64,000 nt of DNA, taken from positions 1 to 64,000 of the forward strand of contig NZ_RHNY01000001.1 of the NCBI RefSeq assembly GCF_003946345.1, read 5' to 3'. Below the pieces are notes generated by a model, which worked only from the letters and a program-made list of their open reading frames with translations, did no database searches and was not told the origin of the DNA. The DNA comes from Levilactobacillus tongjiangensis (GTDB lineage Bacteria > Bacillota > Bacilli > Lactobacillales > Lactobacillaceae). Both the position numbers and the translations under genes were made by a program. Shown here one piece after another: positions 36,838-40,176 of this stretch (positions within the stretch are counted from its first letter, which is position 1; each line of letters starts with the position of its first letter).

Positions 36838-36866
36838 TTGTCAAACAAAAAACAGTATGCTATTCT
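36838..36866 (+). promoter_or_regulatory. Promoter of the ABC-F leader
   Basis: TTGTCA, exactly 17 bases, TATTCT. Predicted start near 36873, giving a leader of about 217 bases before the ABC-F start. Confidence 0.75.
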
Positions 36867-36872
36867 TTTGGT

Positions 36873-37052
36873 AATCTAAGAAAGAACGAGGTATTCAGCC
36901 GATGCGTAACTAATTAATCCACAAATGTCAGTCAACTTTCACCGCTAGACGGGTGGAGTGGGCTTGTGATTTGGGGTTGATGGTTACGCCGGCTGAGTGG
37001 CTAAGGACATTCAGTGGGCGCCATTTCCGAACGGAAAGCGGCCACTTTTTTA
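36873..37052 (+). promoter_or_regulatory. Probable translation-coupled attenuator of the ABC-F gene
   Basis: The leader contains a mini-ORF (36902-36913), a long-range pairing CAGCCG(AT)GCGTAAC with GTTACGCCGGCTG (36983-36995) that buries the mini-ORF, and a terminator-like hairpin (about 37013-37052, inner stem TTTCC/GGAAA with loop GAAC, outer AGTGG/CCACT, then six T). A second GAGTGGC (about 36995-37001) can compete for GCCACT. This resembles drug-inducible attenuators in front of ABC-F and erm genes. Inducer unknown. Confidence 0.65.
36902..36913 (+). CDS. Three-codon leader ORF (Met-Arg-Asn-stop)
   Basis: ATG CGT AAC TAA, with GAGG ten bases upstream. Its codons lie inside the long-range leader stem. 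Very short Met-Arg leader peptides are known to stall drug-bound ribosomes in erm-type leaders, so it may be the sensor. Too short to judge by composition. Confidence 0.5.
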   Translation: MRN

Positions 37053-37089
37053 GTACCATCAATCCCTGCTATTAAAGGGGGACGAACTT

Positions 37090-38604
37090 TTGACACAAAT
37101 AAATTTAGCGAATATTGAAAAGACAGTTGCTGGTACGACTTTGTTTACAGTTCAACGGTTGTCGGCTACGGATGGTGCCCGGGTAGGAATTATCGGAGCA
37201 AATGGGACGGGTAAAACAACCCTGGCCAAGATTATTGCTGGGGTCGATACGCAGTTTAGCGGTGAGCGGCACGTGACGGCGCCGGTGACGTTGGTCCCAC
37301 AGATTGCACCGGCGATGGGGCAATCGGGTGGTCAGAGTATGTTGGCGCGAGTGCGGGTGGCCCTGGCGCAACGACCAGCGATTTTAATTTTAGATGAACC
37401 TTCCGCTAATCTAGACGATGAGCATCAGCGCTGGTTACAGGAACAGTTATTGCGGTTTAAGGGGATTCTAATTGTCATCTCGCATGACCGGTCACTCCTG
37501 ACGGCAATTACAACGCAGGTTTGGTCGTTAGAAGAACAGACGTATACACCATATAATGGCAACTTTGCAAAGTTCACCACGTATCGTGAACAGCGACGAG
37601 AAAATACTTTGTCGCAATATCACCACGAACAACGTGAGCAACGTGACTTACGTGAAGCTGTTCAAGCACGACATGAAAAGGCTGCGCGTATTCGCAAGGG
37701 GAGTCGGCAGATGAGTGCTGGCGAACGTGCAAATTCCCAGTCGGTTCGGGAACAGAATGCCGGTAAGATGGAACGTGGTGCCCGGGCCTTAAAGGATCGC
37801 GCCAACCGGCAGACAGTGACGGTTAAACCACATGAGACGGCACCGTTAAAATTAGTTGCCACCGATCTACCACCAGTTCGCGGTAAGTTCTTAGTGACCG
37901 TCAATGAACTTGATTTACAACGCGACGGGCGGATGCTCTTACAACGAGCAAGTTTACGGGTAGCACCTGGTGAACGGGTTGCTTTGGTCGGACCGAACGG
38001 TAGTGGTAAATCAACGTTGATTGAAGCAATTTTAGCGCATCAGGCGAATACGCGATTGGCGCCCAGTGCCCGGGTGGGTTATTTCCATCAAGATATGACT
38101 GTATTGCCACAGGAGCAAACGGTTTGGCAGTTTATGAGTCGGGCCACGGCGCTTGATGGGAATCGTACTCGTCTGATTATGGGGGCGTTTGGATTATCGG
38201 CAATCTTCTACGAACGGCTCATTGGTGAGTTGAGTGGGGGCGAACAAGTTAAACTCCAATTACTTGCGATTTTAGTCAGTGCTAGCAACCTGTTGATTTT
38301 GGACGAACCAACCAATTATCTGGACTTACCTGCGTTGCAGGCGTTGGCAGAATATCTGGTTAATTATCCGGGTACCGTGGTCTTTGTGGCGCATGACCAA
38401 GATTTTCGGCAACAGGTGGCCACCCGGACCTTGGTTTTCAAGAACCAAAAATTGTTGGATCCCACCAAAACAGCCAAGGGGACTCCAGCTTCAGACTTAC
38501 CGCGATTACAATTTGAATATGATCAATTGATGATGGCGCCTGAACTTGATACCCAACGTTTGCGAGAATTACGTGAACAAATCGCGGCGTTAAAAGCGAA
38601 GTAA
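37090..38604 (+). CDS. ABC-F ATPase, antibiotic-resistance (ribosome-protection) type
   Basis: Soluble protein with two ABC domains and no membrane part, 504 aa. Domain 1: Walker A GANGTGKTT (about residues 37-45), signature SGGQSMLARVRVAL, Walker B LILDEPSANLDD, switch ISHD. Charged linker about 170-255 (EQREQRDLREAVQARHEKAA), the element that reaches the ribosomal drug site. Domain 2: GPNGSGKST, LSGGEQVKLQLLAI, LILDEPTNYLDL, VAHDQ. TTG start after AAGGGGGA. Size and leader fit ARE-ABC-F proteins (Vga/Lsa/VmlR/Msr group) better than housekeeping EttA/Uup. The drug class protected cannot be read from sequence. Confidence 0.88.
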   Translation: MTQINLANIEKTVAGTTLFTVQRLSATDGARVGIIGANGTGKTTLAKIIAGVDTQFSGERHVTAPVTLVPQIAPAMGQSGGQSMLARVRVALAQRPAILILDEPSANLDDEHQRWLQEQLLRFKGILIVISHDRSLLTAITTQVWSLEEQTYTPYNGNFAKFTTYREQRRENTLSQYHHEQREQRDLREAVQARHEKAARIRKGSRQMSAGERANSQSVREQNAGKMERGARALKDRANRQTVTVKPHETAPLKLVATDLPPVRGKFLVTVNELDLQRDGRMLLQRASLRVAPGERVALVGPNGSGKSTLIEAILAHQANTRLAPSARVGYFHQDMTVLPQEQTVWQFMSRATALDGNRTRLIMGAFGLSAIFYERLIGELSGGEQVKLQLLAILVSASNLLILDEPTNYLDLPALQALAEYLVNYPGTVVFVAHDQDFRQQVATRTLVFKNQKLLDPTKTAKGTPASDLPRLQFEYDQLMMAPELDTQRLRELREQIAALKAK

Positions 38605-38736: not shown

Positions 38737-40176
38737 ATGGATTCAGTACAAGACAGCCATTCAGAAATGGCGAAAAAAGCTCGTGTACAAGTTGAACATC
38801 CTATGCTTGCAATGATGGGGATGTTAATCGGGGGCTTTGTTGGGATGTTTTCAGAAACGTCCTTAAACATTGCGTTGCCACAGTTAATGGTCCAACTGGG
38901 CGTTACGACGGCCACGATTCAGTGGTTAGTTACGGGTTATATGTTGATGGTCGGGGTTGTTTTACCACTATCAAGTATTATTACAAAATGGTTTACCACA
39001 CGACAGGTTATTCTGTTCGCGTTGATTGATTTCGCTGTTGGTGCCGTCATCTCGGCCACCGCACCAGGTTTCGGCGTTCTGCTGTTTGGTCGGATGATCC
39101 AAGGGATTGCGACTGGGCTGATTTTACCGTTGATGTTTACGGTGGCTATGCAAATTTTCCCACCTTATAAGTTGGGTGCTGCTATGGGTGTGATTAGTCT
39201 GGTGATTATGTTTGCACCAGCCGTTGGCCCAACTTTAGCGGGTATTGTTTTGGGCGTCGCTTCTTGGCGATGGATTTTCTGGCTATTCGTACCTTTCTTA
39301 GTTATTGCCTTTATCTTCGCGGTAACATCCTTGACTAATATTGCTGAAATTACGCGGCCTAAGGTGGATTTATTATCGATCATCTTATCCACGATCGGCT
39401 TTGGGAGCTTAGTCATGGGGGTCAGCTTGGCTAGTGATCATGGTTGGGGGTCAGGTGCTGTCATTGGTGCCCTGATCTTGGGCCTGGTTGTCTTAGCTTG
39501 GTATACACACCGTCAATTGAATACGGAGAAGCCGGTCTTAAATTTACGAGCCTTTGCTATTCCTGGTTTCCGGATGGGTGCCGTGTTAGTTATGATTAAC
39601 TTTGGGATTATCTTATCTGCCATGTACCTGTTACCAATGGTTATTCAAAAAGGACTGTTGGTTCCAGTAGCGTTAACCGGGATCATCATGTTCCCTGGTG
39701 GGATTGTAAATGCCCTTGTGTCAGCCGGTGCTGGTCGGTTGTACGACCGGGTAGGTGCCCAGAAGCCAGTCCGAGTAGGCTTTATTATTTCGATGGTGGG
39801 GGCGTTAATGTTAGCCTTTACGTCGACCTCATCAGCTGTTTGGTATATTATTTTAGCTCACGTTGTCCTCATGATTGGGGTACCATTGGCGATGTCACCA
39901 TCGCAAACCCATGGGTTAAACGCCTTAACGGGCCCAATTGCCGCCGACGGGAGTGCCATCATGAATACGTTCCAACAAGTTGTTGGGGCGATTTCAACGG
40001 CGATTGCGACTAGTCTGTTGGGAATTGGTCAAGCAGCATACACTGCGACGAGTGGTGTGAACCACGCCGCTGGGGCCTTCGTAAACGGTGCCCACTATGG
40101 GTTCTACTTTACGTTTATCTTAGCGTTAGTTGGTTTCCTGTTAGCTTTACGTTTACCTAAAACTGAAAGTAAGTAA
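38737..40176 (+). CDS. DHA2-family MFS multidrug exporter
   Basis: Drug:H+ antiporter of the 14-TM EmrB/QacA/LmrB group, 479 aa. TM1 SLNIALPQLMVQLG followed by TIQWLVTGYMLMVGVVLPLS is the family's motif, with GRMIQGIATGLILPLMF in TM4 and GPTLAGIVLGVASWRWIF for motif C and the TM5 end. It may be the efflux counterpart of the ABC-F protein upstream (132-base gap), although a shared transcript is not established. Terminator directly after the stop. Confidence 0.9.
   Translation: MDSVQDSHSEMAKKARVQVEHPMLAMMGMLIGGFVGMFSETSLNIALPQLMVQLGVTTATIQWLVTGYMLMVGVVLPLSSIITKWFTTRQVILFALIDFAVGAVISATAPGFGVLLFGRMIQGIATGLILPLMFTVAMQIFPPYKLGAAMGVISLVIMFAPAVGPTLAGIVLGVASWRWIFWLFVPFLVIAFIFAVTSLTNIAEITRPKVDLLSIILSTIGFGSLVMGVSLASDHGWGSGAVIGALILGLVVLAWYTHRQLNTEKPVLNLRAFAIPGFRMGAVLVMINFGIILSAMYLLPMVIQKGLLVPVALTGIIMFPGGIVNALVSAGAGRLYDRVGAQKPVRVGFIISMVGALMLAFTSTSSAVWYIILAHVVLMIGVPLAMSPSQTHGLNALTGPIAADGSAIMNTFQQVVGAISTAIATSLLGIGQAAYTATSGVNHAAGAFVNGAHYGFYFTFILALVGFLLALRLPKTESK

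Follow-up and report, generated by a model that had tools for sequence, protein, structure and literature searches.

Three-codon upstream open reading frames (uORFs) ahead of ABC-F genes are already published, and the class of mechanism to which they belong is known. In the 219-nt vmlR leader of Bacillus subtilis, the uORF encodes MIN, its start codon and Shine-Dalgarno sequence (SD) are necessary, and a NusG pause motif as well as induction by drugs have been demonstrated (PMC9226507). Drug induction has also been demonstrated for cplR of Clostridioides difficile, in which the uORF encodes MR[I/M], while the uORFs MK[L/Q] and MAGN have been predicted for VmlR2 and LsaA, respectively (PMC10201436). 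In Listeria monocytogenes, the attenuator in the lmo0919/VgaL leader (rli53) is relieved by lincomycin (PMC11550727), and for are5sc of Streptomyces, the uORF of which encodes MLV, toe-printing showed that lincosamides, pleuromutilins and streptogramin A, but not erythromycin, stall the ribosome at the start codon (PMC12421871). Here, we analyze a leader with a three-codon uORF ahead of an ABC-F gene in Levilactobacillus tongjiangensis (contig NZ_RHNY01000001.1, positions 1 to 64,000; this whole 64,000-nt stretch is referred to as the window).

Compared by description, the leader in the window resembles that of vmlR in having a three-codon uORF in an anti-antiterminator stem, an intrinsic terminator, an antiterminator, a related ABC-F gene downstream and a similar length (~217 nt from the predicted transcription start to the TTG of the ABC-F gene), but its uORF encodes Met-Arg-Asn and not Met-Ile-Asn. 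With cplR it shares the three-codon uORF and a design in which stalling would free the gene, and the Met-Arg-Ile of that system is found in five of 61 Lactobacillaceae uORFs; however, the terminator stem of cplR hides the SD of the gene, whereas here the terminator lies upstream and a separate hairpin covers the SD. The rli53 attenuator, likewise compared by description, precedes the closest solved relative of this ABC-F protein. The are5sc leader is similar in its three-codon uORF and different in its actinobacterial ARE5 gene and its UUG start, and msrD is similar in the uORF-controlled attenuation of an ABC-F gene, but its leader is longer and induced by macrolides (PMC10314930).

The feature in the window is real and conserved. 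Based on the sequence and its comparison with relatives, on which the uORF, its SD, the stems, the terminator, the antiterminator and their conservation all rest, we suggest that the leader is very probably an attenuator of transcription under ribosome control, which probably has a second, translational layer and would keep the Vga-like ABC-F gene off until a drug blocks translation. In this model, a ribosome would, without drug, complete the three-codon uORF at once and depart; the long stem would bury the uORF, its 3' arm would be unavailable, and RNA polymerase would halt near 37051, at the terminator. If a drug blocks formation of the first peptide bonds, the ribosome would stall on the uORF, likeliest with the start codon in the P site, and cover the 5' arm of the stem. 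The freed 3' arm would then form the antiterminator hairpin, taking the base of the terminator, and the freed GGGGTTGATGG would pair with CCATCAATCCC beside the ABC-F SD. In this model, the early end of transcription, the stall caused by a drug and its codon, the class of drug, the pausing and the translational layer are inferred. Experiments on vmlR and cplR have shown such a mechanism for three-codon uORFs. A sequence-only reading of the window had listed the promoter, the ~217-nt leader, GAGG, ATG-CGT-AAC-TAA, the T6 terminator and the TTG start, all of which are present; its suggestion that a three-codon sensor would be among the smallest known is correct, but such sensors are not new, as those of vmlR (MIN), cplR (MRI) and are5sc (MLV) have been published.

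Conservation of the uORF

Orthologous leaders were collected from 40 genomes of relatives of the window, from a family with a match in 53 of 397 genomes at E<=1e-150 (23 of the matching places were fetched) and from 32 loci in named genomes. Of 71 distinct upstream regions, the 62 followed by a protein with at least 40% identity were taken as orthologous, and the nine below 40% identity (L023-L030, L062) were excluded. The three-codon uORF is present in 61 of the 62 leaders and encodes MRN in 54, MRI in five, MRF in one and MCN in one. The start is ATG in 59 and GTG in two, codon 2 is CGT in 30, CGC in 30 and TGC in one, and codon 3 is AAC in 55, ATC in five and TTC in one; the stop codon is TAA and the SD spacing 9-11 nt in all 61. 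With loose patterns, an extended -10 is found in 61/61 of these relatives and a -35/-10 pair in 59/61; promoter-like sites are not commoner in the window than in shuffles (4 vs 3.4).

Because the uORF sits in a stem, conservation of its bases alone is weak proof of translation. However, the A and U of its AUG are bulged in the predicted stem and are invariant in 33/33 Levilactobacillus leaders, while other unpaired columns in this genus have a mean identity of 0.79 and 17% of them reach at least 0.97. Changes at the wobble base of the Arg codon are accompanied by changes in the opposite arm; the two form U-A in 20, C-G in six and U-G in two of these 33 leaders and are unpaired in five. Thus, the invariant bulged bases, together with a start, SD and stop that stay constant while codon 3 and the Arg wobble vary, point to translation of the uORF.

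The sole exception among the 62 is L054 from Secundilactobacillus oryzae, in which the uORF arm is missing. The same truncated leader (L054:1-248) is closely matched by L268:901-1200 on the Limosilactobacillus reuteri plasmid NZ_CP030091.1, where it lies near recombinase and IS30 genes. Both lack the uORF arm and retain the downstream part including, by eye, the antiterminator and terminator, and this truncated leader is a natural variant of the switch. At four Levilactobacillus loci (L008, L012, L039 and L045, of which L012 is from L. brevis), ~150-190 extra bases lie between the leader and the ABC-F start; in L008, a 77-codon ORF begins in these bases, in a different frame from the ABC-F gene. 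The viral contigs searched held no relative.

Paired structures and computed switching

Nucleotides 36873-37060 are predicted to fold at -76.5 kcal/mol compared with -50.4 (standard deviation 4.2) for shuffles (z -6.3, 0/200 as low), and the terminator (-18.0 kcal/mol) has 13 pairs; a simple consensus terminator scan of the window did not list it. The sequence-only reading had proposed a 13-bp pairing with a two-base bulge around the uORF. A stem with two bulged bases indeed buries the uORF, but it is longer than proposed (Table 1). The antiterminator hairpin and the second pairing with CCATCAATCCC are additions to that reading that are supported by the folding and pair counts.

Table 1. Predicted elements of the leader and the gene downstream, in coordinates of the window
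Feature	Position	Strand	Details
Promoter	36838..36866	+	TTGTCA 36838-36843, 17-nt spacer, TATTCT 36861-36866 with TG (extended -10)
SD of uORF, GAGG	36888..36891	+	10 nt 5' of ATG
uORF ATG-CGT-AAC-TAA (Met-Arg-Asn)	36902..36913	+	three codons, kept in 61/62 orthologous leaders
Anti-antiterminator stem, 5' arm	36892..36926	+	contains uORF; folding, pair counts
Anti-antiterminator stem, 3' arm	36969..36999	+	folding, pair counts
Apical hairpin of stem with conserved GGGTGGAGTGG	36929..36966	+	possible pause hairpin; folding, pair counts
Antiterminator hairpin GCCGGCTGAGTG...CATTCAGTGGGC	36988..37019	+	overlaps terminator 5' arm; minimum-free-energy fold with footprint blocked
Intrinsic terminator hairpin and T6	37013..37051	+	hairpin 37013-37046, T6 37046-37051; 99.5% of cells paired
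Long-range helix, 5' side GGGGTTGATGG	36973..36983	+	same bases as part of stem 3' arm
Long-range helix, 3' side CCATCAATCCC	37056..37066	+	adjoins ABC-F SD; competes with pairing of that SD
Hairpin CCCT...AGGGG	37064..37082	+	partly hides ABC-F SD AAAGGGGGA (37074-37082); folding, weak computed effect on SD opening
ABC-F gene, Vga-like	37090..38604	+	504 aa, TTG start

Pairs of four helices were counted in two alignments, A1 with 33 Levilactobacillus leaders and A2 with 25 of the 28 uORF-bearing leaders outside this genus (L058, L060 and L076 were omitted as divergent). Because the counted structures were taken from L001 and L074, part of the margin above slid controls is built in by this choice. 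For the repressed form, i.e. stem and terminator, 86.5% of cells are paired in A1 with a covariation score of 0.126 vs 0.093 in shuffles, and in A2 80.4% are paired, 23 pairs are changed on both sides and the score is 0.202 vs 0.144; in both alignments, 0/500 shuffles scored as high. In A1, the scores of the antiterminator (75.1% of cells paired; 0.164 vs 0.129) and of the long-range helix (90.3% paired, four pairs changed on both sides; 0.149 vs 0.115) were also reached by 0/500 shuffles, and for the helix in A2, 2/500 shuffles were as high for pairs changed on both sides. The covariation score of the slid controls was lower throughout; for the antiterminator in A1, one slid version exceeds the real one in cells with both-side changes (10 vs 8). 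Altogether, pairing is above that of the slid controls and, by most measures, above that of shuffles, and the both-side pair changes support the stem and terminator and, less evenly, the antiterminator and long-range helix.

A stalled ribosome was mimicked by blocking 32 nt around the uORF start. In the window, the minimum-free-energy fold with this footprint blocked has the antiterminator and the long-range helix, and sequestration of the terminator 5' arm rises from 0.00 to 0.83. The probability of the terminator drops by at least 0.3 in 37/61 leaders when the uORF is blocked and in 0/61 with a control block elsewhere. If the transcript extends only to the loop of the terminator, its 5' arm becomes more sequestered, by at least 0.3, in 33/61 leaders, i.e. 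9/33 in Levilactobacillus and 24/28 in the others; in L089, the script probably picked the wrong T run. By contrast, the ABC-F SD opens by at least 0.2 in 10/57 leaders, and none closes as much (the script did not locate this SD in four leaders). An SD-hiding hairpin that would be relieved in the induced form may be a further likeness to vmlR; here, the long-range helix has changes on both sides in Levilactobacillus and is weak outside this genus, and the SD opening is limited to these ten. Because the computed SD opening is small, the transcriptional switch appears better supported than a translational one.

Several observations count against this model. Shuffles ignore relatedness, and the counts out of 500 are, therefore, not probabilities. 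Measures of pairs or pair types are weaker than the covariation score. For the antiterminator in A1, shuffles were as high in 149/500 for pairs changed on both sides and in 101/500 on a second measure of this kind, and the pairing in A1 is low because the other leaders do not share the inner pairs of the window; in A2, where six pairs were counted and 92.7% of cells are paired, shuffles were as high in 31/500 for the score and 424/500 for pair types. The long-range helix in A1 was equaled in 35/500 for pairs and 92/500 on the second such measure, and it is weaker in A2 (188/500 for cells paired, 62/500 for the score). In some leaders, e.g. L007, L017 and L078, neither folding measure shows a switch, and the low number of leaders with SD opening argues in the same direction. 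The ABC-F protein scores 369.9 bits with the general NCBIfam ribosome-protection model and 353.9 bits with the Vga model, below the cut-offs of 380 and 725, respectively. Against a stall at the start codon in particular, an MRK variant of the vmlR uORF induces less than MIN, so the codons can matter (PMC9226507).

In the apical hairpin (36929-36966), the primary sequence of GGGGTGGA is conserved across most of the leaders in A1 and in A2, also when the bases opposite it differ. It is a possible pause signal, and by likeness to SL-2 of vmlR, the apical hairpin may be a pause hairpin.

Two-codon uORFs and the stalling codon

Tiny uORFs extend beyond the orthologues. Among eight distant ABC-F upstream regions, five have one (L024 MRN, L023 MKF, L025 MKI, L027 MR and, by eye, L026 MKL). 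In a survey with the Vga model, 106 of 398 Bacilli genomes had a match, and of the 30 listed loci examined, one of them without upstream DNA, 15 have a three-codon ATG uORF behind an SD (MKY, MIN, MIF, MIL, MKN, MKL, MYN). A further 20 leaders, chosen from the same list, yielded five three-codon ATG frames (MKQ, MTN twice, MSK, MWN) and the two-codon frames ME (L224), MH (L227), MK (L235) and ML (L237, which also has MWN). By the SD pattern, seven of these 20 have no tiny uORF; this pattern misses real cases, as L236 is blank and yet is the same place as L250, which has Met-Lys-stop. In family f48 of Bacilli, with a match in 20/33 genomes, the uORF has two codons in 12/20 leaders, three in seven and is absent in one; in family f2, with matches in 5/18 genomes, it has two codons in L239 and L241, three in L242 and L243, and six in L240. 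The six-codon uORF of L240, a sister of the two-codon L239, encodes MRIIQS.

In total, we count 15 two-codon uORFs ahead of Vga-type ABC-F genes, in positions at which relatives have three codons (L248-L257, L260, L262, L239, L241, L224); L235 is the same place as L248 and was counted once, and the Met-His-stop of L227 and Met-Leu-stop of L237 were not counted because their context differs. All 15 read ATG-(AAG/AAA/GAG/CGC)-(TAA/TAG), i.e. Met-Lys/Glu/Arg-stop, and exchanges between AAG and AAA and between TAA and TAG preserve the frame. GGCCG or GGACA lies directly 5' in 13/15, a descriptive count because the pattern was set after inspecting the sequences. In 15/15, the uORF pairs less with distant bases (median 0.56) than do the eight bases that follow it, and in 5/15 such pairing is nearly absent (0.01-0.19). 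In those five, coding is, therefore, favored over pairing as the constraint; a two-codon uORF in a bulge was rejected as a general rule as it holds for these five of 15 only.

On a tree of 34 proteins (eight two-codon, 25 three-codon and one uncounted six-codon), the two-codon state needs four changes, whether gains or losses, and well-supported branches force four. An earlier tree kept 38 of 41 rows (L207, L239 and L241 were lost to a motif filter) and had six two-codon rows on one side of one branch. To arrive at 34, the near relatives L003, L019, L058, L072, L092, L246, L250 and L218 and the very long branch L026 were dropped, and L239, L241, L264, L266 and L267 were added, while L265 was unused. 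The four changes argue that the sensor does not read the nascent chain. In addition, Met-X-stop offers next to no space for a signal from the nascent chain; what the class would sense is that formation of the first peptide bond is blocked at the start codon. With moderate confidence, we propose that the leader is one of a broad class whose sensing reading frame can be reduced to two codons, and that the whole class, including Met-Arg-Asn, senses this block. If this is true, we know of no drug-sensing reading frame smaller than the two-codon uORFs.

A survey with NF000355 covered 60 upstream stretches from the best listed matches in the order, one of only 103 nt. It gave few short ATG uORFs, among them MYLIFM (L129), which we take to be the msrD leader peptide, and ...SMRLR (L151, L152). 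As known or likely Msr-type uORFs, these are useful as a positive control, and NF000355 was rejected as a source of relatives because it represents the wrong subgroup. Met-Lys-stop frames behind an SD also occur in L167 and L179, upstream of further ABC-F genes in this order. Among the articles listed in literature searches, no title or abstract opening names a two-codon drug sensor for ABC-F genes; in one of these listings, the term two-codon appears for a single article, on a minigene in the axe-txe toxin-antitoxin operon (PMC8708949).

The sequence-only reading had a ribosome halted on Met-Arg-Asn. That an occupied uORF opens the stem is supported by folding, but a stall at the start codon by a blocked first peptide bond is more likely than one on the Met-Arg-Asn chain, because the orthologues differ in codon 3 and some related uORFs consist of two codons. 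We consider it improbable that the uORF is instead a peptide-specific sensor, in which a macrolide or ketolide arrests the ribosome with a nascent Met-Arg-Asn chain as in the longer erm and msrD leaders. Codon 2 is Arg in 60/61 and codon 3 Asn in 55/61 leaders, Arg-containing arrest motifs are known for ketolides (PMC8298421), and besides the weaker induction by MRK (PMC9226507), the vmlR uORF sequence has been called crucial (PMC10201436). However, codon 3 may be Ile or Phe and codon 2 Cys, two-codon relatives exist, and conservation of the residues is confounded by the pairing of the same bases; in vmlR, moreover, MDN and MDK are at least as good as MIN (PMC9226507). Finally, the closest solved relatives are VgaL and Vga-type proteins with Msr-type proteins further down, and macrolide-specific sensing was ranked lower.

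A stall that chiefly controls translation of the gene by releasing the ABC-F SD, with the terminator secondary as reported for cplR, is unlikely, if less so than the peptide-specific sensor. The both-side changes of the long-range helix in Levilactobacillus fit such a release, and cplR reporters kept drug control after removal of the U-tract (PMC10201436); however, little SD opening is predicted, the helix is weak outside Levilactobacillus, and the terminator here is upstream of and separate from the ABC-F SD. It is very improbable that the leader is a riboswitch or an attenuator bound by a protein, with the uORF incidental. Such an element would account for the length and structure of the leader and for its conservation outside the uORF, with the apical GGGGTGGA element among the conserved parts, but the Rfam scan of the window gave no family at gathering score in the leader, for which reason a general riboswitch was rejected. 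Moreover, the bulged AUG bases are invariant in Levilactobacillus, GTG replaces ATG in two of 61 leaders with TAA kept throughout, and at corresponding positions in other ABC-F leaders, the ORFs differ and have two or three codons. Thus, we favor the ribosome-controlled attenuator with a stall at the start codon.

The ABC-F gene, its locus and implications

The product of the ABC-F gene is probably a Vga-like ribosome-protection protein; because its scores are under the curated NCBIfam cut-offs, its drug spectrum is a guess and the protein is called no more than Vga-like. The protein is 97% identical to its L. yonginensis counterpart. Among solved proteins, Lmo0919/VgaL is nearest (E 1e-76) and aligns over residues 4-482, a stretch with the two ABC domains and their linker. 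A lincosamide-streptogramin A resistance protein and two entries named ExpZ are also near, and Msr-type proteins rank further down. Structure 6ha8 is presumably VmlR. Structure 8buu is VmlR2 (PMC10201436). Because the closest solved proteins are Lmo0919/VgaL and the lincosamide-streptogramin A resistance protein, lincosamides, pleuromutilins and streptogramin A are likelier inducers than macrolides. On two protein trees, the Lactobacillaceae ABC-F clade (support 100/100) groups with L023 and not with classical Vga-type rows.

Upstream of the leader promoter lies the divergent nrdI gene, and directly 3' of the ABC-F gene lies a gene for an LmrB-like exporter of the DHA2 family (38737-40176). 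By tblastn, a match to nrdI and a match to the exporter (one at 28% identity only) were each found at 26/31 named loci. The sole Rfam match in the window is an M-box magnesium riboswitch at 2341-2509 on the minus strand (133.7 bits).

We did not find this leader in the literature on lactobacilli with ABC-F, uORF or attenuation, as covered by titles and abstract openings and including few subscription articles. The present analysis extends three-codon drug-sensing attenuators to lactobacilli, and the two-codon relatives make it testable how small a frame suffices to sense a peptidyl-transferase drug and whether the peptide matters. A chromosomal and probably inducible ABC-F gene could matter for the safety testing of starter and probiotic strains, and induced resistance may escape assays done without induction.

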